From Owenia fusiformis (lineage: Eukaryota > Annelida > Polychaeta > Sabellida > Oweniidae), in contig CAIIXF020000006.1 in NCBI GenBank assembly GCA_903813345.2, positions 39,938,848-40,002,847 of the forward strand: a stretch of DNA of 64,000 nucleotides, written 5' to 3'. Both the position numbers and the translations under genes were made by a program. The notes beneath the pieces were generated by a model. That model ran no database searches, was not told the origin of the DNA, and worked only from the letters and a program-made list of their open reading frames with translations. Every line of letters starts with the position of its first letter. Positions within the stretch are counted from its first letter, which is position 1. Of the stretch, positions 5,130 to 61,800 are shown one piece after another.

Positions 5130-7560
5130 TAGCGTTCAAACAGTATGGTGTCCACATTTTGATTTTTCAGTGGTCGATTATTTGAAGCCTGAATCAAGCG
5201 AAGATTATGTAATGTAAACCATACTTTGACCTTTCAATTCCTGACGATTTGAAAGATTGAAAAACTAGTATAATGGTGACCATACTTTGTCCTTTCATTG
5301 TCTGGTGATTGGGAAGGTTCTTGTATAATAATAAATTGAGACCGTACTTTCAGTTTTCAATGACTAATGGTTTTGAAGGCAGTAATATATTGAAGACCAT
5401 AATTCCATCTTTCAGAGATTGATGATTTTGAAGGTTGTAATGCAATGGAGACCATACTTTAATTTAAAAGTAAATAATGGAGACAACACGTTTAACTTTC
5501 AATGACTGATGATTGGGATGGTTGTAATATAATGTAGACCATACTTTGATTTTCAATGATTAATGATTGATAAACTGGAGACCATACATAGACATTTCAG
5601 TGACTTATGCTTTGAAAGGTTGTTATATAATGTAGACCATGCTTTTACATTTCAATGAATGATAATTGGGAAAGTTGCAATTTAACAAAGACCATACTTT
5701 GACCTTTCAGTGACTTATGATTTGGAAGGTTGTAACATATCGGAGACAACACTTTGACCTTTCAATGACTGACGATTGGGAAGGTTGTAATATAATATAG
5801 ACCATACTTTCACCTTTCAGTGACAGATGATTGGGAATATTTTGATATATTGGACCTTTATATACTTTGACCTTTCAGTGACTTATGATTGGGAAGGCTG
5901 TAATATAACATAGACCATACTTTGACCTTTCAATGACTAATGGTATAGAAAGTTGCACTATAACGGGGACCATACTTTGACCTTTCAATGACTAATGGTA
6001 TAGAAAGTTGCACTATAACGGGGACCATACTTTGACCTTTCAATGACTAATGGTATAGAAAGTTGCACTATAACGGGGACCATACTTTGACCTTTCAATG
6101 ACTCATGGCTGGGAAGGCTGTCATATAACGGAGACTATACTTTGACCTCCCAGTGACATAATTTGGAAGGTTGAACCATAACGTAAAATAGACCATACTT
6201 TGACCTTTCAATGACTCATGATTTGGAAGGTTGTACTATAACAGATTTATGATTGGTAAGGTTGTCATATATCGGAGACCATACTTTTACATTTCAATGA
6301 ATGATAATTGGGAAAGTTGCAACATAACAGAGACCATACTTTGACCTTTCAGTGACTTATGATTTGGAAGGTTGCAATATAACGGAGACAATACTTTGAC
6401 CTTTCAGTCACATGATTTGGAAGGTTGTTATATAAAAGAGACCATATTTTGACCTTTCAATGACTGATGGGAAGGTTGTAATATAACGGAGACCATACCT
6501 TGACCTTTCAGTGACATGATTTGGAAGGTTGTGCTATAACGGGACCATACTTTGACCTTTCAATGACTTATACTTGGGAAGATTGTAATATAACGGAGAC
6601 CATACCTTGACCTTTCAGTGACTTATGATTTGGAAGGTTGTAATATAACGGAGACCATACTTTGACATTTCAGTAACTAAGGATTTGGAAGGTTGTGGTA
6701 TTAGGGAGACCATACTTTGACCTTTGAATGACTGATGGTTTGGACGGTTGTGAGATTATGGAGATTACATTTTGCCCTTTCAATGACTGATAATTGGGAC
6801 AGTTGTAATATAACAGAAACAATACTTTAACCTTTCAGTGACTTATGATTTGGAAGGTTCTAATATATTGCAGAGACCATACTTTGACCTTTCAATGACT
6901 GATAATTGGGAAAAAAGTGTAATATAGTTTATTAGTTTAGTTTATTTATTTATTTATAGTGGTCAGTCTTACAATTATATAATAATTAATTATAATATAA
7001 CGGAGACCATACTTCGACTTTCAACGACTAATGATTGATAAATTGGAGATCATACTTTGACCTTTCGATGACTGATAATTTGGAAGGTTGTAATATGATG
7101 TAGACCATACTTTGACATTTCAATGACTGATGCTTCGGAAGGTTGTAACATATTCGAGACCATACTTATCCCTTTCAATGACCGATAGTTGGTAAGGAAA
7201 GGCTGTAATATATCGGAGACCATACTTTGACCTTTCAATGACTGATGATTGAAAAAATTATTGGAGGTGATACCTGAGCATTTTAATGAATGGTCATCGG
7301 GGAGGCTGTAACATAATGCAGACAGCACTTTAACCTTTCAATGACTGATAATGGGAGGGTTGATATTCAAAGGGGACCACATTTTGATAATGGGAAGGTT
7401 AATATTTAATGTGGACCACATTTCGATCTTTCAGAGACCTATCATTTAGGTTTAAATGTATTGTAGACCATACTTTAACCCAAATCACTGTGATAATGAC
7501 AACTTTCAATTACAGATAATGAGAAGAATGTGATTATAATGGTATATTGACCATACATAG
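5130..7560. repeat. 55-bp minisatellite, block 1
   Basis: About 40 degenerate tandem copies of a 55-56 bp unit are present, with core phrases GACCATACTTTGACCTTTCA and GGAAGGTTGTAATATAACGG. Three consecutive copies at about 5926-6095 are identical and exactly 55 bp. Some copies carry TTTGACCTTTCAG, which looks like a 3' splice site. The array starts downstream of the TGF-beta exon. Another block of the same family lies at about 47990-49190, and scattered remnants lie at 8400-9400. Confidence 0.9.
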
Positions 7561-32400: not shown

Positions 32401-35400
32401 TAATAAGTGGCCTATACATCAATACAGTGCTGAATAAAGGTCAACAAGATACTAGTGTGCATATAAATGTAAAAATTGAAGCAGAATACTCATTTTGAAA
32501 AATCAGATGAATTATTTTTTCCCATGGGGAGATCCCAATGGAGGGTGTATAAGGTCCTTTTCTGGAAAAGTAAAAACTCCAATGTATAAAAGACTCAATA
32601 CGAATAACTTTTTTTCTAGGGAATAATTCCTTTCAAGAAATTATAAAATAAATAAAGTAACCAGCCTAACAGCCCTTTGAAATTTCAACAACGTTTTACT
32701 TTTTTTGTTTTCTTAAGACTTATCTTTTGTTTTTAGGTGAATACGGTAAGAACTTTAAGCCACGTTACTTTATCTTAATGGATGATGGTCCATTCAAAGG
32801 ATTCATTGACGTCCAAGCCAGCCTAACTCAAAAACCTCTGATTAATTTCTTCGTTGAAGGTATGTGCTAATTAATTCTTTCATTGAGCTCAGATTGATAT
32901 ACTTGTACTTCTTCAGGGAAATAGTCAGTAGAGAACAGGAATATCAGTTTTCTAGTTTCCATGATCACTCTACTATACATTTCACCTAGAAATGCATAAG
33001 ATACATGTACTTTGTCAATTTGGATTGTTAAGTATATTTTAGAAAGTACCTTATTAACTTCTAACAGTCATCCAATAAACCATTAATAAGGAACAGACAC
33101 ATAAAAACAAATTCGATAATTATTACTGATAAGCCGAAAGGGTTTCTTATGAAGGTTTCTAGACAAGTCATCCCAAGACAATTCATCCCCATTCCCAAGA
33201 CATTTCATCCAAAGACATCTCATCCCAAGACAACTCATCCACAAGACAACTCATCCCAAGACAACTCATCCCCAAGACAAGTCAACCCAAGACAAGTCAT
33301 CCCTAAGACAAGTCATTCCAAGACAATTCATCAAAAGACAATTCATCCCAAGACAACTCACCCCTAAGACAATTCATCCCAAGACAACTCACCCCTAAGA
33401 CAATTCATCCCAAGACAACTCACCCCCAAGACAACTCACCCCCAAGACAATTCATCCCAAAACAATTCATCCCAAGACAAGTCACCCCAAGACAATTCAT
33501 CCCAAGACAACTCACCCCTGAGAAAATTCATCCCCAAGACAATTCATCCCAAGACAACTCACCCCAAGACAAGTCATCCCAAGACAATTCATCCCTAAGA
33601 CAATTCATCCCTAAGACAATTCATCCCAAGACAACTCACCCCAAGACAATTCATCCCAAGACAATTCATTCCTAAGACAATTTTCCCGAGACAATTCATC
33701 CCAAGTCAACTCACCCCTAAGACAATTCATCCCAAGACAACTCACCCCAAGACAATTCATTCCAAGACAACTCACCCCTAAGACAAGTCATCCCAAGACA
33801 ATTCATCCCCAAGACAAGTCATCCCAAGACATCTCACCCCAAGACAAGTCATCCCAAGACAATTCATCCCAAGACAACTCATCCCAAGACAATTCATTCC
33901 AAGACAATTCATCCCAAGACAACTCACCCCCAAGTCAACATTCATCCCAAGACAACTCGCCCCAAGACAAGTCAATCCAAGACAATTCATCCCAAGACAA
34001 CTCACCCCAAGACAACTCACCCCCAAGACAATTCATCCCCAAGACAACTCATCTCAAGACAATTCATCGCAAGACAACTTATCCCCGAGACAACTCTTCC
34101 AAACTTGAAATATAACATAATTCTATACAGTTAATTTCGAAATGGCACTTGAAAGTTATGTTTTACTTTTAAGTACGGTATCTTGATTCTCAATAGATAA
34201 ATAAGAATATCGAATTGAATATAAAAGTCATAGACATGATTTTCAAATTCAATCATCATTAATCTGAAAATTTATAATTTGAAATCGTATTCCGGATTAA
34301 GCCAAAGATGACATATTGGAATTCAGCAAAATACGTCAATACAAAGACTGAATTAATCTGGGAGAGTCATTCTTATAATACCCCGGATAATAATGAGGGG
34401 TTCTTACATTAAAGAATAATAGTTATAAGTTCTAGTCGTTATTCTATTACAACTATGCTGAAAAACAATGGTACAATTTAGAAGTTTCTGCCAAAATGAT
34501 TTGCTTTGTCCGAATCAATCAACAAAAAAGAACTAAAACTAGACTAAACGAACTACAAAAAATAAAAAATATCAAGTAAATACCACGGTGTTATAACATG
34601 ACGGTTACGTCAAGGCGATTTGCGAAATTTTGCGGTAACGATAACATAAAATGGCGGATGGGAAATACAGCATGTCCTCTTTCTCGCCTGTAGGCAAGAT
34701 TCACAGATAAGATTTACTTTTCAGCTAGTTACATTCGGTGACGTATATATTGATGGTTATAAAGACTGGGTCAAATCTGCCAGGTGGTTTACTAGAAGCA
34801 GAATATAAGCTGTAAACTTACCGACTGATATATCAAAGTTCATAATTTTTAGTCCATTCTCGTGTTTTCTCAGTATATGTGCCTCAAAGCCACTCAAACT
34901 ATTAACTGTAAGTAAACTATGTATGGAAAAGCGATAAAATGACAAATCCAGAAAAGGAACGTGGTATATATTGTAAGTAATAAGGTTTCAAACGCAATGC
35001 CGTTAGACGACTACGTATTAATTATATGGACGGTAACGTTTTGTATGAGTTGTACATTAGATATATAGCGGACGGTTACGTGCATGTACATCTTTCAAGT
35101 CAAGGTTGCTAGTAAGTTCCGATAGCCTTTTTCCATGTCATTGTTATAACGGGTAAGAAATGGAATATTGAATTGCTTATATTTGTTTTCAGGACTCGCA
35201 AGAGACGCTCTTGTTTGAGCCTCAATAGGGCAAGGAAAATTGTGACTTGCTTTATTTATGAAACCAATGAAATTCAGAAAGATAGCAATGAAGAGGCAAA
35301 GGAAGAATTAGCATCACGTACTGATGAATATGGCAAAAATTAATAACAATGGATCGGGGATACATATTTGAACGAGGTTCGCGTAACCCTCGATTTTTTT

Positions 35401-38400
35401 GCGCAAATTCAAAATACATTATTATGGCTTGAGTTGAACATATTAGGTGGTTCCCAATGCTCAATTGGCTTTTTATGATCGTATGTAGGTTACATCTATA
35501 TACCCCGAGGTCGTTAGGCAATGTAGACCATGCCCTTAAGACAAAGATAAACAAATTACTAAATTTTGTGTAGTTTTGAATTTCAAACTCAACAGTTTTT
35601 AGCTTATTATATGTTATCCCCGGGCATCAATTTGCAAAGACTACGTTCAAAATATACATTACGAAATGCATCACCGAATGCGATGCTTACATAAATCGTT
35701 CATCCTTTCATAGATACACAGTAGTAGAAAATGATGTACCAACCTTAGTTTTCTGTTCCATCACGGCCATTTTATTTGATAAACCAATGAACGTAGCCAA
35801 CCAACCTCGTTTTCAGAGGTGGCGTAACCGTCATGCTATAACGTACCGTGAATACAGCATGACAAAATATAAAATGTGTCAGTTTAAAATACAGCATGAA
35901 AAAATGTATATTAAAAAATCAAAGATATTCTATGGCCAAATAGTATGCCAACTGCTAAAATCTGTAAATATTTTTCAAAAATTCTTTCAAGAGTTGAAAT
36001 TAATTGTATAAAATAATGTTATATTTCAAGTTGGGAAGAGTTCTCTCGGTTATAAGTTGTCGTGGGACGAGGTGTCGTGGGGATGAGTTGTCTTGGAATG
36101 AGTTGTCTCAGGGATGAGTTGTCCTGTTACCCTCATGAACATCAAATGCAAGGTTTAGTAGAGTGATGATATGTCAATGAATATAAGCATAGTTGTTGTT
36201 GTTGTTGTTGTTGTTTTGATTTTGACAAAGGCAGTAGAGAATTTCAATCAGGGGATGCACATATAATAGACTGGAAAGCAGAGACAATGAATATAAGCAT
36301 TTTTTTGTTGTTGTTGTTGTTGTTGTTTTGACTTTGGCAAAGGCAGTTGAGAATTTCAATCAGTGAATGCACATATAATAGACTGGAAAGCAGAGATAAT
36401 GAATATAAGCATTTTTTGTTGTTGTTGTTGTTTTGACTTTGGCAAAGGCAGTAGAGAATTTCAATGAGTGAATGCACATGTTATAAAACTGGAAAGCAGA
36501 GATAACATGAATGTGATGTTTTCAGAATACAAGATTGAGAGGACTGAAAAATTCAGAGCAAATACATTTATCATGCGTACGTTTCAACAAAACATGATTA
36601 TTGAGCGCATTTTTTCTGTTGAGTCCGCTACAGAGAGGTATGTACCATGATATACACAAGTACGAGGCGTGATCGGGAATTTCTGGACCGTTGACTCTAT
36701 TTTTGCCATTTTTATCCTTTCTTTTTGATTTTTTCACATAATATAACGCAACTATATAGGATAACACCATGGAGATTTCATTGTTCTATGACATCATTAT
36801 CCTATTATTGTTGTTATGATGGTAACTAGCGACAAAGGTGGAGCTCATAAAAGATACCAAAGGCCCATGTGCAGTATGGCAAGTGATTTTAGACAGTCAT
36901 ATCTTTCACCATGAGTATTTTCTAGGTAAAAATATACAGAGTTTTATTGAAACAACATGTTTAAAGTAACGTCCCCATGGTAGTAAAATATCAATCCCAC
37001 TCTCTAAAAAATTATGGATTGGGACCCCACCTTGTGATCCTTTTAAATTGCAAGGCTTATTCTCTAAAAAAGAGGAGGTTATATTAATTACTTCTGAAAA
37101 CGGGATAGGTATTGAAATAAAATAAAGTTAAAAACCCCATTTCCCATGTTATTTTCCCATAGGGAAAACTCATGCTATCCATTGTTTTCAGCATGATTTT
37201 GGTCATCCAAAATTGACATCTTCAAAACTAGACTTTTATATGATGTTTGGACACTTTGGCCAATGCATAAAATTTCTGTTGATTTTTCAAATTTTTTATT
37301 TTGCTGAGCTCCACCTTGTTGCGTCAATGGTTACCATGGTAACAATAATAATAGGATAATGATGTCATAGAACAATGAAATCGTCATGATGTGATCCCAT
37401 ATATTTGGGTTATATTGTTTGAAAAAATCACTAAGAAACGATAAAAATGGCAAAAAATGGGGCGAATGGTCCAGAAATTCCTGATCACACCTAGTACCAT
37501 TATGTACTTTATAGTACTACAGAGAAGTATGTACCATGATATACACTAGAATGAACCATAATCTGCTTTATAGTACTACAAAGAGTATGTACCATGATAT
37601 ACACTAGTTTGTACCATAATGTACCTTATAGTACTACAAAGAGTATGTACCATGATATACACTAGAATGAACCATAATCTGCTTTATAGTACTACAAAGA
37701 GTATGTACCATGATATACACTAGTTTGTACCATAATGTACCTTATAGTACTACAAAGAGTATGTACCATGATATACACTAGAATGAACCATAATCTGCTT
37801 TATAGTACTACAAAGAGTATGTACCATGATATACACTAGTTTGTACCATAATGTACCTTATAGTACTACAAAGAGTATGTACCATGATATACACTAGTTT
37901 GTACCATAATCACTAAGAAAGGTTTAAAATATTCAAAAAGAGCCAATGGTTCAGAAATTCCTGATCACACCTAGTATGTACCATTATGTACTATATAGTA
38001 CTACAGAAAAGTATGTACCATGATATACACTTGTATTGTGCCATAATGCACTTTATAGTACTACAAGGTGTATGAACCATGATATACACTAGAATGTACC
38101 ATTATGTACTTTTATAGTACTACAAGGCGTATGTACCATGCTATACACTAGCCATATAGTATGTACCATAATGTACTTTACAGTATTTCAAGGCGTATGA
38201 ACCATGATATACACTAGTATGTACCATAATGTACTTTATAGAACTGCAAGGCGTATGTACCATGATATACACTAGTATGTACCATAATGTACTTGATAGT
38301 GCTACAAGGCGTATGAACCATGATATACACAAGTATGTGCCATAATGTACTTTATAGTGCTACAAGGCGTATGAACCATGTTATACACTAGAATGTACCA

Positions 38401-41400
38401 TAAGATACTTTATAGTACTACAAGGCGTATGTACCATAATATACCCTAGTATGTACCATAATGTACTTGATAGTGCTACAAGGCGTATGAACCATGATAT
38501 ACACTAGTATGTGTCATAATGTACTGTATCGTACTACAAGATATATGTACCATGATATACACAAGTATGTGCCATAATGCACTTTATAGTATTACAATGC
38601 GTATGCACCATGATATACACTTTCTAATATGTACCAAAATGTACTTAATAGTACTACAAAGAGTATGTACCATGATGTACTATATAGTACTACACAGAAT
38701 AATGTACCATAATGTACATCAAGTACTACATAGAATATGTATCATAATGTTCTTTCTCGTACTACAGGGAGTATTTACAATGATATATACTAGTATGTAC
38801 CATAATGTTCTTTCTCGTAGTACTGGGAGTATTTACCATGATATACACTAGTATGTACCATAATGTTATGTCTCGTACTACAGGGAGTATGAACCATGAC
38901 ATACACTAGGATGTACCATTATGTACTTTATAGTACTACAAAGAGTATGTACCATGATATATACTAGTATGTACCATAATGTAAGTTATAGTACTACAGA
39001 GAGTATGTATCATGACATACACTAGGATGTACCATTATGTACTTTATAGTACTACAAGGTGTATTTACCCTGATATACACTAGTATGTACCATAATGTAC
39101 TTTATAGTACTACAAAGAGTATGTATCATGATATACACTAGTATGTACCATAATGTACTTTATAGTACTACAAGGTGTATGTACCCTGATATACACTAGT
39201 ACGTACCATAATGTAAGTTATAGTACTACAGAGAGTATGTATCATGATATACATTACTAAGTACCATATTGTACTTTATAGTACTACAAAGAGTATGTAC
39301 AATGATATATACTAGTATGTACCATAATGTAAGTTATAGTACTACAGAGAGTATGTATGTATGTACATGTATGTACTTTATAGTACTACAAAGAGTATGC
39401 ACCATGATATATACTTGTACATACCATAATGTAAGTTATAGTACTACAGAGAGTATGTATCTTGATATACATTACTAAGTACCAATGTACTTTATTGTTC
39501 TACAAAGAGTATGTACCATGATTTATACTAGTATGTACCATAATGTACCTTATAGTACTACAGAGAGTATGTATCATGATATACATTACTATGTACCATA
39601 TTGTACTTTATAGTACTACAAAGAGTATGCACCATGATATATACTAGTACATACCATAATGTAGGTTATAGTACTACAAAGAGTATGTATCATGATATAC
39701 ATTACTATGTACCATATTGTACTTTATAGTACTACAAGGCGTATGTACCATGATATACACTAGTATGTACCATAATGTACTTTATGCAGGGCGTCAAATA
39801 AGGCTCTCCCCATTTACTTTTTTTAATATAGAAGAAATATAGGGTTACTGTATACCATATTAAAGGGAATTCAATTTGCTGATCACACACCAAATTTTAG
39901 GGTGATTGGTTTAATTCAAAAGTTTTTAGAGTATTTGTAGTGATGTCCATATTTCACATTTTTAATAATTTGTATAATTCCTTCAAGCAGCTCGGACAGG
40001 CTCAATCCAACAAGGATTCAATTCTAAATTGTTCACAAACAGGGTTGTTGCACTTTCCAGGCTTTTAAGAGCTTTCTTGATACATTTGAGCAATATTTTA
40101 TGGCCATGAAGTTCCTCCTCTTTGATTAATTTTTCGACCCTGTCATTCATAATTGCAGTTTTAACTTTTCATCGTTCATACTACAGCCTTATTTTTTTTT
40201 TTTTTTTTAAATTAAAAATATTTATTCTCTAAATTAAAATCAAATACATAATAACACTTGACACTTTAAATAAGTGTATCAGCGTGAAAACATTTAAATA
40301 TTAACCCGAGTCACATGGAAATGAGAAAAAAAGACCAATTAAGAATATTTACTCAGTAAAAAGAGAATAAAATTGATAACAATATATAAAATCTACATAT
40401 ATGTTTGTCAGTAATTCAGTTCATCATATGTTGATGTCATATGGATTTTAAAATTCTTTTTAAAACAGTAAATGGAAGGTGATGTTTTCAAAGAAGTTGG
40501 CAGATTATTCCAAAGCTGAGCACCTGAATATTTTATTGAATGTTGACCTATACTTGTTCTAAATTTTTTCATGTGAAGACAATTTTGGAATCTTGTCTCA
40601 TGTTCGTGAAATATTAAATTTGGAGTAAAATAATTTTCAAATATGTCAAAAGGAAAGCCATCGGGTTTTGTTGTGTATTGATAAAGAAATTTTGCAACTT
40701 CAAGCTTATGTATGTCAAAAATATCTAGAAAATTGAGTTGTTTAAAAAGAGGTGGACTATGTGCTAAAAAGTCAGAATTTGTGATTATTCTCACTGCACG
40801 TTTTTGTAACAAAAGCAATTTATTCAAAAAGGTTTTACATGCATTACCCCATATGATGTTGCAATAGTTCAATTGTGATAATATAAGTGAATTATAAATG
40901 GTAATCATGGTTTTTGTATTCAATTTATATTTAATCTTTCCCAGAATACCAATAATTTTTGATATTTTATGTATAACCTTATTTATGTGTTCATTCCATT
41001 TTAATTTACAATCAATTGTTACTCCCAGAAAATTTGTATGCATTACTCTATTAAGAATATTACCCCCTATTTTTATATTAAAATCTTGATTTTCATCAAT
41101 ATTTAACTTTGATCTTGTAAATAGCATATAATTTGTCTTGTCTATATTTAAAGAAAGTTTATTTGATTTGAACCATTCTAATGTCTTTTCCATTTCTAAA
41201 TTTACATTTCTATATAGATCATGAAGATTTTTGTTAGAACATAAGATATTTGTATCATCTGCGAAAATAGTAAATTTAAGAATATTTGAAACCTTATGTA
41301 AATCATTTATATAAAGAATGAATAAGATGGGGCCTAAAACAGACCCTTGAGGTACACCACAAGTGATAATATTTTCTTCAGATAGAGTGTTGTTAAAAGA

Positions 41401-44400
41401 AGTAATGATTTTTCTATCCGATAAATAGCTTTCGAACCAATTTTTTGCAACATTGCGAATTCCAAAATTATCAAGTTTTTTTAGAAGAATTTCATGATTT
41501 ACTGTATCGAAGGCTTTCGATAAATCTAAAAATATTCCAATAGCATGAGTTGAGCTTTTATCTAAAGATATCCTCACTTCTTCCAAGAAGGAGAGGATTG
41601 CCATATAAGTTGAATAATGTTTTCTAAAACCAAACTGATTTTTTAATAAAAGTTTGTATGTTTCAATGAATGTTATTAATCTATTTTTCATGATCTGTTC
41701 TAAGAGTTTAGAAAAGACACTAAGTAGAGATATGGGTCTATAGTTTGAAAATTTTGAAGTGTTTCCTTTTTTAAAAAGTGGGATAACTTTGGCTGTTTTC
41801 AACTTAGTGGGAAAAACACCTGTATGGATAGATAAGTTTGCTATATGAACAAATGGTAAAAGTAAGTTATTTCTTGCGTGTTTAACTACTATTGGTTTGA
41901 ATTCATCTAGGCCTGGTGAGCAATCTTTTAAAACTGACATTAAATTTTCGATTTCATTCTTACTCACAGGAGTAAGTTCTAAAGAAGATTCATTGATTTC
42001 CATAAATGTTAAAGGGGACGTTTTTGAACTTATCTTTGATGCTAATTTAGGTCCAACATTAGAAAAAAATCTGTTAAAATGATTAGCAATATCTTTTCTA
42101 TCAGTCAAAGTATCATCTCCATCATAAAATTTATCTGAAAAACTGAATCACATTTTTTGCGGTGAAGTAAATCATTTATAACTGACCAAGTATTCTTGAT
42201 ATTATTGCTTGTTTCAGTAAATCTATCACAAAAATATTTCCTTTCTGCTTTACGGATTAATTTATGGAGTTTGTTTCGAAAAGTTTTGTATTCAGCTTGA
42301 TTCTGTTTCGTTGGGTGTTTCAAAGTATTTCGATAAAGTTTATTCTTCTGTTTCACAGATGTTAGTATACCATGTGAGAGCCAAGGCTTAATTGGGTTCT
42401 TGTGAATTTTTGTATTTTTGACTTTTACAGGGAAATGTTCATCATATTTTCTACTAATTTTGTCTGCAAATAAATTATAAGCCACATTTACATCAACCTT
42501 TTCATTAATTATACCAGTCCAATCTATATCTTTCAATGAATCACTAAAATTATTAATTGCACTCAATGGATATTTCCTAAAAGTGATTTGTTTATTTTCA
42601 CAAACATTTTGATGGTGTGATGTAAGGGCAAAGATAGGATGGTGATCAGAAATGGGAAATGAAAGAAGACCACTTTTGATTACATTATTTGAATTAGAAA
42701 AGATATTATCAATAAGCGTAGCACTTTTTTCTGTTATTCTGGTAGGTTTAAAAATCAATGGGTTGTAAGATTGGGAGTATAATAGATTAAGAAAATTCAA
42801 CGTTTGTGCATCACTTTCAGTTTTAAGTAAATCAATGTTGAAATCACCCATTATAAAAGAAATTTTATGTTCCCTATCAATTTTAGAAAGTAGACTCTCA
42901 AAACTTTCAAGAAAAGATGCCATGTCTGTATTTGGTGGTCTATATATTATAGTAATAACCATATTTTTCTCATTTTTTCTAGGAATTTCAATAGATAGAG
43001 ATTCACATGCTTTATAATCTAATTTGAGGTCATCCCTATGTTTAAAGTCAATGCCTTTTAAAATATGAAGTGCAACACCACCCCCTGGTCTATCTTTCCT
43101 AGAGTTAAAAATACTATTATAATTAGAATCATTTTCCTCATAAATAGGCTCTAAGTTTGATGTAAGCCATGTTTCAGTCATACCAATAATTGAAAGATTA
43201 TTTTTTAACAAGAAATATTGGAGCAATTTTATTAGGAAGATTTTATTATTGATTTTTAAAGGGTGATCAGCATTTCCCATAAGCTTTAGGATTATATATG
43301 GGAAAGTATAATAAATTTAAGAATTAAAAAAGTTAGGGGGGGAGAACAGACTTATTTGACGCTCTGTAGTACTACTGAGAGTATGTACCATGATATACAC
43401 TAGTATGTACCAAAATGTACTTTATAGTACTACAGGGAGTATGTACCATGATATACACTAGTATGTACCACAATGTCTTTATAGTACTACTAAGGGCATG
43501 TACCATAATGTACTATATAGTACTACATAGAATATGTACCATTATGTACTTTATAGTATTACTGAGAGTTTGTACCCTAATGTACTATATTGTACTACAA
43601 AGAATATGTACAGGGTTGTACCATAATATACTAGTTTGTACCATAATATACCAGTTTGTACCATAATATACTAGTTTGTACCATAATATCCTAGTTTGTA
43701 CCATATTATACTAGTTTGTACCATAATATACCAGTTTGTACCATAATATACTAGTTTGTACCTGTCCATAATATATAAGCTTGTACCATAATATTCTATA
43801 TAGTACTACATAGAATACGTACAGGGTTGTACCATAATATACTAGTTTGTACCATACTATAGAGGTTTGTGACATATTTGTTTAGTTTGTAACATAATGT
43901 ACTTGCACTTCACATCCTGTAATGTTTTTTTTGTAGGGAGTCCTGGGTCGAAACACTTCTGTCTGTTTCACGGAAGGTGAGAGAGGTAAGGTCCTAGTGT
44001 TTTCAGGAGTTTTCCCCAATGTTGATAAAAAATCACAATTCTGCCCAAAGATTTTCATAATTTTCAAGTAGGATTTTAAGTGAAAGCCTATTTTTAAAAT
44101 ACCGCCATTCTCATCATATTGTGTAGTATGTTTGTTAACAAACTGTAGTCCATATTTGATGAGGTTTCGGGGACATATTAACCAGGAATATATTCCAAAT
44201 CCAGGTATATATATGTCCTGCTTCGACGAGGATCCGGGATATATAAATAATTTATTCTCCCCAAGTAGTTCTCCGGGACGTATGATGGCCAGATATCTCG
44301 ACCTGGGAATTCTCGTCCATATCTTAGCACTGAACTAAATACTCAAGTCCCACAGTTAAACATTTTAGATTTAATATTTGCAATTTTACTTACTTTAAGA

Positions 44401-47989: not shown

Positions 47990-49190
47990 TGGACTAATTG
48001 TTGATGTAATATAAAAGATACCGTACTTTGACCTTTTAATTAGTGGCTGATTGTTAAAGATTCAATCATAAGAATGACCCGACTATGAGTTCTTTTAATG
48101 AATTATGATGGAAATGTTTGACAGTGTGATGATGGTGAATATAACGGAGACAACATTTTAACTTTTTTGTTACTGATTGTGGGAAGGTCAGGATATAATC
48201 TAGACAATATTTTGAAATATAATGGAGACTTATTTTGCTCTTTCAGTGACTTATGATTTGAAGGTTGAAACATTATAGAGATCATACTTTGACCTTTCAA
48301 TGGCTTCATAATGGTAAGGTTGAAATATAATAGAGGCCATACGATGACCTTTCAATGGCTTCATAATGGTAAGGTTGAAATATAATAGAGGCAATACGAT
48401 GACCTTTCAATGGCTTCATAATGGTAAGGTTGAAATATAATAGAGGCCATACGATGACCTTTCAATGGCTCCATAATGGTAAGGTTGAAATATAATAGAG
48501 GCAATACGATGACCTTTCAATGGCTTCATAATGGTAAGGTTGAAATATAATAGAGGCCATACGATGACCTTTCAATGGCTTCATAATGGTAAGGTTGAAA
48601 TATAATAGAGGCCATACGATGACCTTTCAATGGCTTCATAATGGTAAGGTTGAAATATAATAGAGGCCATACGATGACCTTTCAATGGCTTCATAATGGT
48701 AAGGTTGAAATATAATAGAGGCAATACGATGACCTTTCAATGGCTTCATAATGGTAAGGTTGAAATATAATAGAGGCCATACGATGACCTTTCAATGGCT
48801 TCATAATGGTAAGGTTGAAATATAATATAGGCCATATACGATGACCTTTCAATGGCTTCATAATGGTAACGTTGAAATATAATAGAGGCCATACGATGAC
48901 CTTTCAGTGGCTTCATAATGGTAAGGTTGAAATATAATAGAGGCCATACGATGACCTTTCAATGGCTAATGATTTGAAGGCTGGGATCATATAAACAACA
49001 TTTTGACATTTCAGTAATTGACGGTGTATAATGGAGACACCCCTTTGTCCTTTTCAATGACTGACGTTGGAGTGGTTGGAAAATAATGCTGGCCAGACTT
49101 TGACCTGACAATGACTTATGGTGGGTCAAGTACAAATGAGCTTTGCTGAATGGGGGAGAAGGCGTATAATAATGTCCGACCATGATCGTC
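47990..49190. repeat. 55-bp minisatellite, block 2
   Basis: Same family as 5130-7560. A homogeneous core at about 48290-48960 holds about 12 near-identical 55-bp units (GGTAAGGTTGAAATATAATA and GATGACCTTTCAATGGCTTC), varying mainly at one base (GGCCAT or GGCAAT). Degenerate copies flank it. Each core unit has ATG/GTAAGG, a donor-like site on the plus strand. It fills the gap between the two convergent genes. Confidence 0.9.
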
Positions 49191-49891: not shown

Positions 49892-52800
49892 CTGGAATGA
49901 AAAATGGCAAAGTAATGGTCTGTTAAATATTAGTAAAAGTAAATAGCAGACTGAATGAATGAATAAATACACTTATACACTTATAATAGAATTGATCATT
50001 ATTGCGAAACATGGTTGGTTTTGGTTGTAAATTGTCAAAAATGTATTTAGAGGGATGATTCAAAAATAAGGGACAAAATTTACGTTACAATCACGACTCC
50101 TAAATATAATACCTTTTTTATTGTATCAATAATGATGCTATCTGTGTCAACTTGAAAGAATGGCACGTTAAGTAAACTCTCTTTAACACCATTGATTGGT
50201 TTAACAATGAGAGGGTTGTTCAGGTTTGCTGCATTGCGGATCACGCCGGCATCTTGGAATGTGTTCTCGTGTGGTAGAATTGCATACGTGAATGTGTGAT
50301 TGCCCATGTCAGCGACCTCATCGGGGGCTTTCGGCGATTTCAACCTACACGAGAAAGTTAGGAGAGAATTTGATTAACCTGCTATGCCACTCGAATGCAA
50401 TGCACTACTTGTTACGAGAGCTATTCTTCGAGATGAGGTACATTTTAAATTTTCCCAGGAAACGATAGACCAGTGCTTTCATCAAAAGGGAGGTCAAGCT
50501 ACACTTTTCAATAAAACTTGTATTTGAACGTGAAGAACTATAGTCGTATAGAAAATAGCTGGAAACACAGAATTTGAGGGATATTGAGACTAGAACAGAA
50601 TCCACGGGGTCTTATCATAACACGTTCACGTTCTCTTAAAATCATGTAACTGAACCGCACTAACACGTGCTTACCTTTACGCGTTTCATCTAAACCAAAG
50701 TATACAGTTAACACCAATATGTTCAAATATAATCAATAGAGGAGTTTTTTTAAAATGTGTACGTGAATACATGTATGTAATATTATTACATACAAGGACT
50801 ACTACCGACCCTTTCATTGTTTTTTTCTAAAATAATTCAGTGACAACGCATATTTTCCCTATACAATTATACTCAATTGGTCATGCAAGTAAATGTTACA
50901 CAAGCGAACTAATCATGAGAGGACTCTACTCATTTAACTATATTTTGTCTTTAAACGCGTGTTTCTTGGCTCCCCAAATAAATGCAGTTCAGAAACTATA
51001 GATTGGCAGAAAGGAAGATTTTAAAATGCAGCATGCAAGGATAACTTCAAATGGATAACTTATAAGAATAACCTCAAATAAATAACTTACAAGGATAACC
51101 TCAAATGGATAACTTACAAGGATAACTTCAAGTGGATAACTTACATGGATAACCTCAAATGGATAGCTTACGAGGATAACCTCAAGTGGATAACTTACAA
51201 GAATAACCTCAAATGGATAACTTACAAAGATAGCCGCATCACATTCTCGCTGGTTTGGAATCCATATTTGCAGTCGTTCAGTATTGCTACACCAAAGTTG
51301 TATTCTGATAAGTCCGCCCATTTGTGAGTGCAAACCTTAAAAAAACACATTTATAACTAGACTTTGGAAATTGAACAAGTTCAATTTCAGACTCCAGATT
51401 AAGACCTTTTTTAGCCGAGTCATCCAGAATAAGCCGAGTCATCCAGAATAAGCTGAGTCATCCAGCATAAGCCGAGTCATCCAGAATAAGCAGGTGGATA
51501 GCTGGACTGATGGATGAATGGATGGATTGATAGGAGGAAGGATAGGACAGAATAGGAAGGAAGGATAGGATAGAATAGGAAGAAAGGAGAGGATAGTATA
51601 GGGTATGAAGGATAGAATAGGATACGATAGAACCCGAAGAAAGAATAAGATAGGACAGAATAGGAAGGGCAGGATAGGAAGGAAGGATAGGAAGGAAAGG
51701 AAAGAAGGATAGGATTGGATAGGATAGTTGGGATGGATATTATAGTCGAGTCATCCAAAATAGCCAAGTCATCCAGAATAGGCTGAGTCATCCAGAATAA
51801 GCCGAGTCATCCAGAATAAGCCGATGGATGGATGGATTGATGGATGAATGGATGAATTCATAGGATAGGAAGGATAGGACAGAATAGGAAGAAAGGATAG
51901 AATAGGATAGGATAGGAAGGATAGAATAGGATATGATAGAATCCGAAGAAAGAATAAGATAGGACAGAATAGGAAGGATGGGATAGGAAGGAAGGAAGGA
52001 TAGGATAGGAAGGATAGGAAAGAAGAATAGGATTGAATAGGATAGGTGGGATGGATATAGCCGAGTCGTCCAGAATAAGCCGAGTCGTCCAGTCCTATCC
52101 CTCTTTCCTATCCTTCTTATCCTATCCTTCCTTCCTATCCTATCCTATCCTATCCTTCCTTCCAATATAGGAAGGAAGGAAGGATAGGATAGAATAGGAA
52201 GAAACGATAGGATAGTATAGGATAGGAAGGAAGGATAGGATAGGAAGGATAGGAAAGAAGGATAGGATTGGATAGGATATAGGATAGGATATAGGATAGG
52301 ATATAGGATAGATATAGGATAGGATATAGGATAGGATAGGATAGGATAGATGGGATGGATGGAAGGATTTTTCAATATTTTCTTCACTACTCTTGACTTT
52401 CTATCAGGATACCATCATATTGATTTTTTCGATCTTGCGCGTGGTTATTGGCAGGTTAAAAAAAGTCATAACTTTTGAACCGGAAGTCGGATCGAAATTT
52501 GATTTACAGATTCGGATTCCTGAGAAAATTCTACCCTTAATTCATAACTCATATGTTAAATTTGGAGAACTTTTTATTGTGACCTACTTTCTGGACGCCA
52601 TATTTCAAAATCGGTAAGCGTAATCAAAAATCTAATGTCATATCTTTGCTTTGGCTTTTTCTAAGCTACATGATGAAAAAAAGATTTAGGAGTTACGATA
52701 AACAACGACGAAGATAAATGACAGAATGTTGAAAATGTAAGATTTGACCTAGTTCTTGACCTTTGACCTAGATAAAAATTTGACCCAATTTCCGAGAAAC

Positions 52801-55800
52801 TAGATCTAGGACCTAAATGGACCATATATAAGACTTGACTCAATATCTTCTAGTTAACGAGAAAACTGGGAAAGAAAAATAATAAAGAATAATAATAAGA
52901 AGAAGAAGAATACTGACGAAAACAATAGACTCCAGATTTACATCTGGAGTCTAATAATATTGGTTTACCCCGCCCCAATTGAATATAATATTTAATGTAA
53001 AATATGTATATATTTCGCTTAACCCCATATAGCCTACCTCAAACTTGAACCAATCCCAGGATGTATTTGCATGAGTAGGGCGTCTAACAAAGCCGTATTG
53101 AGTGTCATACGTTGCTACGTCACTGCGACAATTCACTGGGAATTCAACCTTTAAGAACTTGTGATCTTCGTGCCAGGCAACCTTAACATAAAGCATTACA
53201 TTATTGTATAAAATTATATGTCGCATATTAGATGAACAAGATAGGTTCAATATTTTGGAACAGGTTGGAGGTGGTCGAGAGGCTCTGCAAATTAATCTCG
53301 TAGGTCCGAGCTGGCTTTGCGCGTGATCTTTAATGTTTGGGGATTGTTCTATATGGGAATGACATTGTTCTTTATGGGCTGGGGTGTGTTCTATATGGGT
53401 ACACGTAGAATATGGTCTTGGAGGTAGTCAAGACTTGTAGAAAGAAGCTTGAAAGTTGCTGGCGTAATCTGGAAAATTATCAAATCGATGAACACATTCC
53501 AATCGGGACATCACTGATATATGTTTATATCACGTGGGTAATACTTTTGAACCAATCAAATTCCTTCGGCTATCTTCGTTGCGAAACAATACCTTCGGTA
53601 TCGGTCCAACATTGTGATTCCATTTCAATCGGTTTATTGAATTAAAACGGCATCCTCCTAACACATTCATCCAGAACTCGTACCTCCTCTTCCAACCTGC
53701 GATCAGCTATTTAGTATTGGTCAGGAAAAATGGTCACTGGGGGAAGGAAGGAACATGTGGATAATGTCTGGAGCCCGGTGTTCAGAGAATGTTATGACTG
53801 AAACGTACCTCAGTATTAAACCTCAAGTATGGGCTTTCAGCATCAAGCACGATGTTCTGTATGATATTGCTGCTGTCGCTTATCTTCAAATTCACCTACA
53901 AACAAACACATATATATATTTCGTTTTTTTAAGTAAATCAAGAAGGTAAGTCAAAATACTACTGCTGTATGTACTAACTTCGAAGGTCCATCTGAACTAT
54001 ACAGTCTTCCAGGCCCATAGCCAGGGGGTGTGCAAACCATTTATGGGACAAAACACGTTCAAAATAATGTTTACACAATTTAAAGCACCGTTCGAGTGAA
54101 TTTGGTCTTGGGCTAAAATGGTCATATGTAAATCCCCTTTTTTCAAAAGTGAACCCACTGGGCAAAAGCTGGCCATGGGGCTCTTCTAACAGATCCCTAA
54201 CCAGGAGGATTACAGATTGTTTTTTTAAATTGCTTACAAATTCAAAGCGCTGAAACCCATGCCCTGTAAGTATTTCAAACAGCAAATCTACTTTAAAGTC
54301 TTGACTTTAATATGACGACAAATAGGTGGAAATCTCTTGAATTTTGTTAAGAAACTATCAACTTTTAATTTCTAGTTTAATTTTTTATATAAAACGTAGC
54401 ATACATTGATGGAACTAATTGTTTCTTACCTTTATCTCGACTCTAAGGCGACTCTTCTCCACAATTCTTGCAGCTTCAATCACTTCAAATACCTCTTTCC
54501 TAATTAAAACGTATGTCTATCATGTTTAACGGACTAGTTTCTCGTTGGATGTCATATTAAGACCCTTTCAAATTGTTCTTCAATTATATTTTTTCTGATA
54601 TTCATAACAAATGTGATTATCACATTATAAATATTTATTTATTTATCATAAAAATATATAAAACATGAAAGATATGTCACAATCTATATAAGACACCACC
54701 GTGGCAAATAAAAGACATCTCATGTCTTAAGACTATTCTAAATACTAAATGTTTCTTAAAGGTGCAACAATTAATGCAGATGGACCATTCAACGATCATT
54801 GAAGAGTGTCAAAATATATTCAAGGTTGGATGTTTCATCATGAATTAGACATATTTTTATTATCTCCAACGAAACCCCCTGAATGAACATTATTTCAGCT
54901 GATATTTCTCTTGAAACTTGGTGGCTCTTAAAAATCTATAAATGGGACTCCCTTTATAGGAGCTTTGAACTGAATTTACACTTCTTAATCCTAAATCCAT
55001 ACATTTTAAGAAAACAGGTATGTCAAAGAAGATGTTAAGCCAAATGTTGCCCTGATAGCTTAGAAAAAGTAACAATTTTCAAATTTTCTCTGTATATCCT
55101 TTGCTGCCCCTTTAATCGCAAAACATGAACAGACTTTGTCACGTGATCCAAAAGGTATCCGAAAGGGAACTCCCGATTGCCCAACTAATTGAAGGGGGGG
55201 GGGAGATGGTGAAAATGGAAAATAAAGCGTATATTACCTTGTTTCGAGATGATAGTGCTCAACATTCCATGCATCATATGAAGCAGGCCTATCTGTGTAA
55301 AGAACAAACTGGTTTCCACACCCGCCATCAATGCATTCCCTGAAATAGGTATCACGCTCATTAATGTAAAGAACAAACTGGTTTCCACACCCGCCATCAA
55401 TGCATTCCCTGAAATAGGTATCACGCTCATTAATGTAAAGAACAAACTGGTTTCCACACCCGCCATCAATGCATTCCCTGAAATAGGTATCACGCTCATT
55501 AATGTAAAGAACAAACTGGTTTCCACACCCGCCATCAATGCATTCCCTGAAATAGATATCACGCTCATTAATGTAAAGAACAAACTGGTTTCCACACCCG
55601 CCATCAATGCATTCCCTGAAATAGATATCACGCTCATTAATGTAAAGAACAAACTGGTTTCCACACCCGCCATCAATGCATTCCCTGAAATAGATATCAC
55701 GCTCATTAATGTAAAGAACAAACTGGTTTCCACACCCGCCATCAATGCATTCCCTGAAATAGATATCACGCTCATTAATGTAAAGAACAAACTGGTTTCC

Positions 55801-58800
55801 ACACCCGCCATCAATGCATTCCCTGAAATAGATATCACGCTCATTAATGTAAAGAACAAACTGGTTTCCACACCCGCCATCAATGCATTCCCTGAAATAG
55901 ATATCACGCTCATTAATGTAAAGAACAAACTGGTTTCCACACCCGCCATCAATGCATTCCCTGAAATAGATATCACGCTCATTAATGTAAAGAACAAACT
56001 GGTTTCCACACCCGCCATCAATGCATTCCCTGAAATAGATATCACGCTCATTAATGTAAAGAACAAACTGGTTTCCACACCCGCCATCAATGCATTCCCT
56101 GAAATAGATATCACGCTCATTAATGTAAAGAACAAACTGGTTTCCACACCCGCCATCAATGCATTCCCTGAAATAGATATCACGCTCATTAATGTAAAGA
56201 ACAAACTGGTTTCCACATCCGCCATCAATGCATTCCCTGAAATAGATATCACGCTCATTAATGTAAAGAACAAACTGGTTTCCACACCCGCCATCAATGC
56301 ATTCCCTGAAATAGATATCACGCTCATTAATGTAAAGAACAAACTGGTTTCCACACCCGCCATCAATGCATTCCCTGAAATAGATATCACGCTCATTAAT
56401 GTAAAGAACAAACTGGTTTCCACACCCGCCATCAATGCATTCCCTGAAATAGATATCACGCTCATTAATGTAAAGAACAAACTGGTTTCCACACCCGCCA
56501 TCAATGCATTCCCTGAAATAGATATCACGCTCATTAATGTAAAGAACAAACTGGTTTCCACACCCGCCATCAATGCATTCCCTGAAATAGATATCACGCT
56601 CATTGATGTAAAGAACAAACTGGTTTCCACACCCGCCACCAATGCATTCCCTGAAATAGATATCACGCTCATTAATGTAAAGAACAAACTGGTTTCCACA
56701 CCCGCCATCAATGCATTCCCTGAAATAGATATCACGCTCATTAATGTAAAGAACAAACTGGTTTCCACACCCGCCATCAATGCATTCCCTGAAATAGATA
56801 TCACGCTCATTAATGTAAAGAACAAACTGGTTTCCACACCCGCCATCAATGCATTCCCTGAAATAGAAATCACGATCATTAATGTGAAGAACAAACTGGT
56901 TTCCACACCCGCCATCAATGTATTCCCTGAAATAGATATCACGATCATTAATGTAAAGAACAAACTGGTTTCCACATCCGCCATCAATGCATTCTCTGAA
57001 ATAGATATCATGATCATTAATGTAAAGAACAAACTGGTTCCCACACCCGCCATCAATGCATTCTCTAAAATAGATATCATGATCAATTATGTAAAGAACA
57101 AACTGGTTTCCACATCCGCCATCAATGCATTCCCTGAAATAGATATCACGATCATTAATGTAAAGAACAAACTGGTTTCCACATCCGCCATCAATCCATT
57201 CTCTGAAATAGATATCATGATCATTAATGTAAAGAACAAACTGGTTCCCACACCCGCCATCAATGCATTCTCTAAAATAGATATCATGATCATTAATGTA
57301 AAGAACAAACTGGTTTCCACATCCGCCATCAATGCATTCCCTGAAATAGATATCACGATCATTAATGTAAAGAACAAACTGGTTTCCACATCCGCCATCA
57401 ATGCATTCTCTGAAATAGATATCATGATCATTAATGTAAAGAACAAACTGGTTCCCACACCCGCCATCAATGCATTCTCTAAAATAGATATCACGATCAT
57501 TAATGTAAAGAACAAACTGGTTTCCACACCCGCCATCAATGCATTCTCTAAAATAGATATCACGATCATTAATGTAAAGAACAAACTGGTTCCCACCCCC
57601 GCCATCAAGGCATTCTCTAAAATAGATATCGGGACCATTAATGTAAAGAACAAACTGGTTCCCACACCCGCCATCAATGCATTCTCTAAAATAGATATCA
57701 GGACCATTAATGTAAAGAACATACTGGTTCCCACATCCGCCATCAATGCATTCTCTTAAATAGAAATGAAGATGATTTATAATTATTGAAAACAGTTTTT
57801 CCATCGAAAGTGCTGCTTAAAGTGAAAGTATAAATTCACTTACTTCTAATTCTGAAAAACGTACTCAAGTTATGTGTTTGTGGTAATATATACATGTTCG
57901 TCAACATGGCAATTAAGTAGTATTAACTTACGTCATAATAACAAAAACACGTATTTCTAGTCTGGAAATTGTACCCAAGGATACTGATTCGTATAAGAAA
58001 ACAACTAAATGTAATAAAAGTAATAAAATAAGGAAATCAAATAGGTTGGAATTCGCATTTTGGTAGCCCATGGCCAGCTGTAAGGATACATTGATCTAGT
58101 TGTGTCAATGTATAACTACTGTAGAGCATTGACATGTCAACCGAAGGTGAATGGGCGGGAAGTACAACTTGATGATTTCGAAGCCAATTTTGAAAGTTGA
58201 AAATATGGAAAAAGGGATATGTCAGCATTTATTCTTTACATTCGTCAAGCTTTACCGTCTTGGTTTTATATTGCGGTGGGGGTGGTATTGGGTCACGTGG
58301 TATACATGTGATTGATCCATAAAAGGCTTATAGGACCACATATAAGCTAAGGGCAATCCCCTCCTACTAATACCAAATAATTACGAAAGCTATTCACTTC
58401 TTGCGAGTATAGCGCTAGTGTTTCATTCATTCATTCAAACTCCTATTCTATTGATTGTACCTTTCCATCTACGAGACAATAATTGTGTGATTTGAAAAGA
58501 ATTGCAATATACATCTCTGACAAACCCTGACACTTGAAACACGAACGAACTATCATATATTGGCAACATTGATTACGTCATTGGTTGTACCTTTTCAAAC
58601 TTTGCAATCTGCGCAAGTTAATCTTATTTTGCTTGGACAAATTGCCTCCAACAACCTATGACATCAATCTAGCCAATATGTTACAGCTTCTTTGCTTTAT
58701 TAATAGGTTGCAGATTTTATTAAAAAGTTTATTTATTTTGAGAACTTCTCAATGTACCTTCCATTTGATTTCATCTTCAGAGAGACTACCTTGCCAATCT

Positions 58801-61800
58801 TATCGACGGTGGCTTCAATGAGACGATTTTGCAACACAATACTTTCGGTTTGTTTATCAACAGTTGCATTACAGGCAATGTCTTCTTTTACATCTGTCCC
58901 AGTTTCTTCATCTACCTTGGCAGCTCCGTATGCAGGGACAGTCACCAATGCTATATTAAAATAATTTGGAGATACAATTGATAAAGCAAATGTTGTCATT
59001 CTTGGAGTTTACATACTGCACATCATTTGATTCAAAGGGTGATATGTTAGTCTCAGCTGTATTAGAATTTCTGAACAGTTCGTTCAGTGCTGTTGTGCTT
59101 TCTTGTAGATGTTTCATTTTCCCGGGTATTGAGCTCGTAGTTCACGAACGTTGCCTCATTACACTAAGTTTTCTCATACGATAGGAAAAACAGTGAAAAA
59201 CCCTGGTAAGAATGTGTATTAAAATTTCAGAAGAGATGGCAGCAACGAAACGAACGAACTGCTACGGAAATGTGAACATATTCGTTTTTACTCAATTAGG
59301 GCTAGTTTGGATCATACATAGTAGCCCATCTAGTATACCGAAATCACTGGATTACTGGATTGAATAAAATCTTTAATACACTGTACCTACTTACCCAATT
59401 TTCTACCAGTCTGTGGAACTTCCGTTTTCATCTTTTTCCTCTTCTGCTTTGGGGTTTTAGGTTCGTCACTTCTGCCAACCTCCACAACTTCCGTTCTCGA
59501 CCATCCAAGTCCATTTAGGGCTATGTTAACAAGCGGTCCTTTGCCATCCTAGCAACCCCAAAATACACAAATATTGCAAATATATGCAGCCTTAGAATCA
59601 TTATGAAATAGATGGAAATGGTTAGAATCAGAATGTGTCAGACATTTTGCTATCGACTTTCTAAACTGGCGAAATGTTTTAGCATTCGGGGGAGAAGCAT
59701 ATTACCTGAAAAACAGCACTGATTGCCCCATTCAGCAAAGCTTGTCCCTTTTCCTGGATTTCTAGAAAAGATGATTAGATACATCATATCTGTTCACAAA
59801 ACATTTTAAAAGTATAACCTTTATAGTTATATTGCCGATCTACTCTTATATAGATATATTTTTCTCTGTCAATATCATTTTGAAAAATGCTTTTTAACTC
59901 CAATGAATGGGAAGTTGCTCAACTGCGAGCTTATCTGTTTGCAAATACAAAACCAGCAAAATGCCACCAGGGCCAAAAAATCAAAATTACAATTGTTTAC
60001 TTGTATTAAGAAACTGGCTTTTGTACATAATTGGAAAATTTACTGACCTTTATAGTAAACGATTGCATCATTGTTTACCTGTAAAAATAAACACACAACT
60101 GAAATATAATGACTTTGAAAACGTACAAATAAAATGGGAGTGAGATTTATAGTATTGCATTGTACTGAATATGTATTGCATTGTCTGAAAGAGAGAATAC
60201 AATTATGTTTTATGCTCGCATATATGAAATATATAAAAGTGTAAGATTAAGATCAGACTGAACTTTCTACCATTTTGTTGACCATGTGATTTTTTCAGTT
60301 GAAGAAAACTTATTTCAAACAGGGTCGAAATCTTTCATTTTTCATAAAATGTGCTTTAGTGAACTCAGATTATAAATCGAGTTTTAATTTTTCTTTAAAA
60401 AGTAAATAACTGAGCGATCTTATTTTCAAAATTGCAGAACGCATCATGTAGATCTGCCTTACATCAGTTGACTGTATAAATGTTGTTGTTTTGAAACAAA
60501 TGTGTAGAATTACAGAGAATCAAGGTCAAAGTAGGATAACCTGAGACAAACAGACCTATTATTTTACAATCACATGCAAAACATGGGTGCAATGATTATT
60601 CAACGAATCCAAGATTAAATATCAAATAAATATAACTGACAAAGGTATACAAGGCAGAGCATCTTTTAAAAGACTAATAACATGTTAACTAATCTATATT
60701 TTCAAATGAGATACATCGACAGTTTCAATGTTCGGTCAAGAAACTTTAAATATGTCGTACCTCGTTTATCGAACTCCCCGGAAGGACATCGTGAAACTGG
60801 TTTAACAAGAATAGCTTCCACATACGTTCTATATCGTCAGCAGGATATACGTAGGCGTTCGATTTCAGCGAGGATGATGACTGTGTGCGAAGTGCCAACG
60901 TGGAAATAAACTCGAGGTTATGGAAAAGGACCTCACCCTTCCTGTTTTCACGTTTAATCTAAAATTACAAGACATGACGTTTTTCTTTGCTCAAATGACA
61001 CAGGATATTTCTTGGTATTCCCCTGAAGCTAAAAATATGAACATTTCGTTCAACATGACATTTAAGAAGAGAAACTATTTGCACTGAACTTATCAAATAA
61101 TCGAAATACAATATTCATGATGCTCATGTATCCCAAAATCGTCGGTACTTTTTAAAATAATTGATACATGGGATAGATGCAACAGCTCATTTGATGAAAT
61201 TCTACAAAGTTAATTAAATAACATATATACAGGGTGTTCCAAAAGTAACAGGACTGGTGCTGGTATTTTGTCAATTTTGCACCTAGTGTCTTCAAATTTT
61301 TACAAATCGTACTTTGAAGTATTGCAACTAAAATTGTATAGTTTCAGAAAAAATGATGAAATGCGGCTAGAGTTGTGGTTACTATAGCAACATGACATCA
61401 CAATACCCGGGGCAACTTTTTTCTGAAAATGTGATATCTAACATTTTTGTATTACTGAAGGAAGTATCCATTTCACCTATTATAATACAACATTTCTTAT
61501 TTATTTTATTAGTTGCTTTGTTGTAAAGGTGTTGCTATAAAACTCAGATTCAAGTCTAATTTCATTATAATAATATTTATTCAATTTCCTGGAATATCAC
61601 TATGAATTACAGTCTGAACAATTTGTGGTTGAGTATTTGAAAAGACCCAATTTGAAGCCAGTCATCCACCTTGATAAGGCGCCTGCCCGCAGGTCACCAT
61701 TAAAGACCATGCAGCTATAGAGAAGCTAGGTCTTGAGTTCTAAAAAAAATGTACCATACTCTTCTGATCATGCAATATCCAATTTTTACTTACATGGGGA

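Follow-up and report, generated by a model that had tools for sequence, protein, structure and literature searches.

A 69-bp minisatellite with 36 acceptor copies across an intron-exon boundary of a MAN2C1-type gene in the annelid Owenia fusiformis

Introduction

In NAGNAG tandem acceptors, several 3′ splice sites stand in series for one exon, 3 nt apart, and in coding variable-number tandem repeats (VNTRs) of the mucin type, the repeat lies wholly within an exon and is translated. Here we describe an array in the polychaete Owenia fusiformis that can be compared with both, located in a stretch of 64,000 nucleotides (contig CAIIXF020000006.1, positions 39,938,848 to 40,002,847, hereafter the window) within the gene of a cytosolic-type alpha-mannosidase, MAN2C1, where the junction between an intron and the following exon has been multiplied. 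The array shares with NAGNAG sites the serial acceptors for one exon, but its spacing of 69 nt is wide enough for every copy to have a branch point and a pyrimidine tract of its own, and it is not a member of that group. Like a coding VNTR it is an in-frame minisatellite inside a gene, whereas its repeat spans the junction and its translation is doubtful. The array probably lengthens the intron rather than creating new proteins.

The closest described systems are the "mirages" of amphioxus, reported from Adh3 and the globin genes BflGb6 and BflGb9, and by PMC3902484 also from TnC and PGBD5, with accurate splicing undisturbed. Amphioxus mirages affect both 3′ and 5′ boundaries, as in Owenia, and, in a further likeness, evolve in concert within the cluster while the edge units diverge; the amphioxus globin paper proposes that they give rise to new introns. 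In BflGb6, the 3′ end of the intron and the 5′ part of the exon are repeated, which is the layout of the MAN2C1 array. Amphioxus mirages vary in length (6 and 3 copies in the two BflGb6 haplotypes), whereas the MAN2C1 array is known from one haplotype and has 36 copies; its unit of 69 bp is a multiple of three and stop-free throughout, and it belongs to an annelid, not a cephalochordate. No report of mirages outside amphioxus was found in the open-licence PMC literature, and the size of the array, its open frame and the occurrence of mirages outside cephalochordates are new.

The MAN2C1 gene and its array

The exons are numbered E2 to E22 in a scheme of our own, and a slash marks splice boundaries. 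When E15 to E22 are joined at the last acceptor, they give an open stretch of 383 residues (384 codons including the stop), with the domains Glyco_hydro_38C (PF07748, 2.1e-62) and Glyco_hydro38C2 (PF17677, 3.8e-13). The best among eight matched PDB sequences (7vqo, 6lz1 (Ams1), 7dd9 and 5jm0) are Ams1-type mannosidases, and the product aligns with solved structures of this type through the E15/E16 junction. Judged by these matches, the gene is a cytosolic-type alpha-mannosidase, MAN2C1 / Ams1, of glycoside hydrolase family 38 (GH38); the name MAN2C1 itself is based in part on the human sequence. Same-strand GH38 matches extend beyond the window to C6:40,007,328, and further exons were recognised in region L007. 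Since the first exons and at least two small ones, one in the gap from E9 to E11 and one in that from E13 to E15, are unplaced, it is the C-terminal part alone that was joined and found open. E15 ends at 58758 with AATGGAAG/gtacat; joined at the last acceptor, the sequence would read AATGGAAG + GGAATGC and continue with TTTACACAGATAGG, whereas after joining at an inner-block acceptor further upstream, GGAATGC would be followed by TTTACATTAATGAG.

The initial annotation of the window had described at this place a 36-copy array of a 3′ splice site, with all units 69 bp long, stop-free in the MAN2C1 frame and ending in CAG or TAG. Tandem Repeats Finder (period 69, 35.8 copies, 97% matches, 0% indels at 55296-57764) and a unit-by-unit reading bear this out, save that the outermost acceptor ends in AAG. 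On the minus strand, each unit joins a 44-nt copy of the exon start to 25 nt from the end of the intron. Complete units number 35; they are flanked by the outermost acceptor, where exon-like DNA starts at 57754, and by the terminal exon copy, where the exon starts at 55339, so that there are 36 acceptors in total. All 35 units are exactly 69 bp and run through the MAN2C1 frame without stop or indel, and the AG is preserved in 36 of 36 acceptors.

The array is a boundary-spanning minisatellite, or mirage: each of the 35 units holds intron and exon sequence of one junction, the terminal copy runs into the exon, and a homogeneous interior is bordered by edge units that diverge, strongly so only on the intron side. 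The units fall into 14 types, and 17 of the 35 are identical to the consensus. Units 3-21 carry 0-2 changes each and units 22-34 carry 3-8, while the exon-side units 0-2 have one change, common to all three; among the distal units, a three-unit pattern can be followed (23/26/29, 24/27/30, 25/28 and, less exactly, 31). The many consensus units together with the divergence of units 22-34 suggest that the array probably grew most recently next to the true exon. Beyond the outermost copy, agreement with the unit consensus extends to 18 positions of the 25-nt intron end but to only 14 of the 44 nt further out. This marks the start of the repeated unit and is what a tandem duplication from intron position -25 to exon position +44 would leave.

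Near-identical units are easily miscounted, and the array is seen in a single assembly (498,259,871 bases in 525 contigs, C1-C12 having 31.9-62.2 Mb each and 477.5 Mb in sum). That its copy number was collapsed or expanded by the assembly is nevertheless the least probable of the explanations considered here: the distal units are individually distinguishable and follow the three-unit pattern, and a length of 2.5 kb would fall within the span of a long read. A two-unit search of the 498-Mb assembly gave at least 21 matches, all inside the array, and no second copy of it, and a second haplotype or alternative contig carrying the array was not found in this search. Even so, the number of units in the assembly may be wrong, or may be polymorphic in the animal.

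Further mirages in the genome

Beyond what the initial annotation reported, the 5′ splice site of E20 in the same gene is multiplied as well, by a 27-bp array with eight in-register copies (0-7, counted outward from the exon), in which GTAAG is kept in copies 0-5 and the GT is lost in 6 and 7. Of the last 10 nt of E20, 8 agree with the unit, compared with 0-4 of 10 for 15 other MAN2C1 exon ends (taken from the 16 other placed donors), so that the 27-bp repeat spans the exon boundary. Use of any of copies 1-5 would immediately add TTG-TAA.

Outside the window, we fetched two other multi-exon GH38 places (L027; L028-L029) and nine myosin-head regions (L030-L038, 62.8 kb), chosen before repeats were looked for, the latter holding 45 of the 92 myosin-head matches listed, or 90 match ends. 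Four of these 90 ends lie within 20 nt of a tandem array, and two are clear mirages on reading the sequence. In the myosin acceptor mirage (L033), acceptors stand at 5653, 5913, 6173 and 6432, the upstream copies match the last one at 216-227 of 240-241 positions, and all three would bring a stop if used. In the myosin donor mirage (L031), four donors are exactly 34 nt apart (4497, 4463, 4429 and 4395); two of the alternatives shift the frame, and the third, at 102 nt, reads into TAG. The MAN2B-like gene of L028 has a single acceptor copy 156 nt upstream of the true one, bringing an in-frame stop; the copy aligns with a score of 196, whereas none of 100 shuffles exceeded 28. Boundary-spanning arrays were thus found at the E16 acceptor of MAN2C1 and at four more places, at four genes in all (Table 1). 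In the four other mirages, the alternative copies checked bring a stop or a frameshift, so that a working product needs the exon-proximal copy.

Several other arrays were not counted as mirages. From L028 2049 to L029 6450, an array of about 13.4 kb with a different 69-bp unit begins 5 nt inside the intron following a MAN2B-like exon; it starts 5 nt after the donor's G and shows no clear exon portion, and its consensus unit carries a branch-point-like TACTAAT and an acceptor-like CAG. The array at L027 4213-4403 reaches an acceptor, yet the AG itself is not repeated, and the 21-bp array at L031 4633-4720 stops 22 nt short of the acceptor that belongs to the exon with the multiplied donor. At L030 5783-5820, a 17-bp unit is present 2.2 times at an exon end.

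Table 1. Positions of the MAN2C1 exons discussed and of the mirages (window positions unless a region is named)
Feature	Position	Strand	Details
Acceptor array (mirage) of MAN2C1	55296..57754	-	69 bp x 36: 35 full units + 44-nt start of true exon
Outermost, probably ancestral, intron end	57755..57779	-	taaatcatcttcatttctatttaag
E15, upstream exon	58758..58950	-	donor GGAAG/gtacat
E16, true exon after array	55238..55339	-	102 nt; starts with terminal copy; donor ACAAG/gtaata
E17-E19	54499-54430, 53895-53809, 53181-53038	-	open
E20, multiplied donor	51335-51226	-	open
E21-E22	50344-50113, 49891-49676	-	open to stop
Donor-side mirage of E20	51036..51232	-	27-bp array; last exon base 51226, GT from 51225
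MAN2B-like acceptor mirage	L028 915-1241		unit roughly 150 bp; true exon start 1209
Myosin acceptor mirage	L033 5427-6523 (C4:24495000-24504999)		260-bp unit, four copies
Myosin donor mirage	L031 4365-4500 (C4:17292800-17299700)	-	four donors ACAG/GTAGGGGTC

Open frame and changes among the units

The frame of 860 residues over the array is open throughout, and the initial annotation had cautioned that openness alone does not prove translation. Two of the six frames are free of stops over the whole array and a third contains a single stop, so that openness is not specific to the frame of the gene. By a rough estimate, the chance of a junction unit being both a multiple of three and open is about one in five.

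Among the units, 21 distinct changes were counted, of which 7 are synonymous, 14 nonsynonymous and none a stop. When neutral changes were simulated at the observed share of transitions, the expected numbers were 4.9, 14.7 and 0.8, respectively, with P = 0.19 for at least seven synonymous changes, 0.44 for no stop and 0.52 for no AG lost. The changes therefore look neutral, for coding and for acceptor retention alike, and no departure from neutrality was detected, in a test of low power. The exchanges of Cys to Tyr, to Trp and to Gly that had been pointed out earlier are present in units 22, 26 and 32, so that Cys is lost in three units.

Choice of the acceptor

We consider it likely, from the sequence and from the amphioxus analogy, that mainly the last acceptor is used and that the array is functionally intronic. 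The initial annotation had held this as its fallback; it is the reading favoured here, and the C-terminal exons are intact. The array would have begun when the last 25 nt of the intron were duplicated in tandem together with the 44 nt that open the next exon, and slippage or unequal exchange would then have raised the 69-bp unit to 35, latest in the exon-adjacent block. By exon definition, the spliceosome would use mainly the last acceptor, which adjoins the true exon and its donor, and each added copy would convert a former exon start into intron while the enzyme stays unchanged. Mistakes in acceptor choice would add 23n residues without destroying the mRNA, and hence the array would be tolerated, because its unit happens to be a multiple of three and stop-free. 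Exon definition is plausible since E16, with its 102 nt, lies behind an intron of 3,418 nt and before one of 738 nt, and it would account for mirages being tolerated. PMC9225289 reports that, where the flanking introns are long, splicing prefers the sites nearest to each other across the exon.

Several points weigh against this reading. PMC9225289 has the upstream preference of 3′ sites significantly reduced under exon definition and states no reversal, and the amphioxus globin paper allows that repeated AG or GT could act as cryptic sites and give alternative transcripts. The last acceptor is also transcribed last, and the frame of the array forbids no upstream acceptor, unlike those of the other mirages. 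Nor does site strength single out the exon-proximal copy. On a crude acceptor matrix built from the 17 other acceptors of MAN2C1 (leave-one-out range -7.5 to 12.0), the 36 copies score 0.3-8.4, with copies 30-35 at 0.3-2.8 and the inner block mostly at 5.6, and the terminal acceptor and its two neighbours score 3.3, below most inner copies. The true donor of E20 likewise scores 3.1 (-1.5 when left out of the matrix) against 5.3, 5.3, 5.3 and 7.3 for four of its copies.

The initial annotation had proposed a family of mannosidases with 0-35 extra 23-residue inserts, which would lie in the loop that precedes the conserved GNQFVLY strand if many of the acceptors were used. In favour of this, all 35 units have a length divisible by three and lack stops, the acceptor scores fall within the range of the gene's 17 other sites, and the loop varies in length, as 6lz1 (Ams1) was aligned with six extra residues there. 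We nevertheless find such a family unlikely and do not uphold the proposal, because the changes among units look neutral, with the Cys lost in three of them (at low power), because the other four mirages cannot work in this way with their stops and frameshifts, and because no RNA structure was found that would steer acceptor choice, a unit and a dimer folding slightly worse than the shuffle mean (z 1.2 and 1.3); in the amphioxus precedent, too, the mRNA is reportedly undisturbed. No known RNA family scored above its gathering score in the window. Somewhat less probable again is a working ladder in which 36 near-identical acceptors are chosen by tissue or by allele length, giving a tunable family of cytosolic mannosidases with inserts of 23n residues, an idea that can be entertained only because the MAN2C1 acceptor array, alone of the five mirages, is a multiple of three and stop-free throughout. 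Splicing of micro-exons, by a donor within each unit, was rejected, since the best internal GT (CGG/GTGTGG) scores only 1.4, a value that 16 of the 17 placed MAN2C1 donors exceed in leave-one-out scoring.

It might also be supposed that the oldest, outermost sites are used constitutively and that the enzyme carries most or all of the units. The outermost acceptor is probably ancestral, with the original intron upstream of it, and is transcribed first, and the entire array frame is open; joining there would add 805 residues (1189 against 384 codons including the stop). We hold this to be very improbable, as copies 30-35 are among the lowest in score, the outermost acceptor is AAG/A (though AAG is used in 3 of the 17 other MAN2C1 introns), an insert of 805 residues in a conserved beta domain would probably harm folding, and the units bear no sign of selection at the protein level.

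Mirages at four annelid genes suggest that the growth of minisatellites over junctions is a wider route of intron change, in which use of the exon-adjacent copy would make exon DNA intronic and leave the protein unchanged. The MAN2C1 array is moreover a natural experiment in which a single pre-mRNA carries many identical acceptors. Since their misuse would leave a readable product, it can show directly how position alone makes the spliceosome prefer some of several equal sites to others.

Repeat background and neighbouring features

Coverage by tandem repeats with a period of at least 10 amounts to 10.7% in 18 genome samples of 6 kb at preset places, to 18.5% in the window, to 26% in its MAN2C1 part (largely the 69-bp array) and to 9.7% in the myosin regions. 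A subtelomeric cause of this richness was rejected, as eight samples 0.5 Mb from contig starts have 11.8% and ten at 20 Mb have 9.9%, a small difference by which the genome appears repeat-rich throughout. With 2 of the 20 MAN2C1 junctions checked in the window lying inside arrays, no special cause is needed, and arrays over junctions are no commoner than expected from chance placement in a repeat-rich genome. Neighbouring minisatellites lie in the window at 37494-39785 (58 bp), 5329-7250 (55 bp), 48261-48967 (55 bp) and 33161-34100 (15/31 bp), and in L007 at 403-1011 (98 bp). Among protein families searched for in the assembly, the annelid erythrocruorin-linker family PF16915 gave three matches above its cut-off and COX1 gave none; searches for the GFP family and for mollusc haemocyanin were also negative, but their controls stayed silent as well, so that they do not establish absence.

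Tandemly duplicated, diverged exons, candidates for mutually exclusive use, were seen in the MAN2A-like gene of L027 (about 4212-4050 and 3620-3450, minus strand) and in the MAN2B-like gene of L028 (about 1474-1627 and 1890-2044). At C9:37986009-37994334 (minus strand), at least 12 serial myosin-head matches to one profile region (about 18-84) probably represent a set of exons from which a myosin gene selects alternatively. Elsewhere in the window, two long overlapping frames with reverse transcriptase and endonuclease domains (40411-43316, minus strand) probably belong to a non-long-terminal-repeat (non-LTR) retrotransposon, and a 309-residue frame ending in a TGF-beta domain (3560-4486, plus strand; 7.2e-8) probably forms the final exon of a gene in the TGF-beta family.

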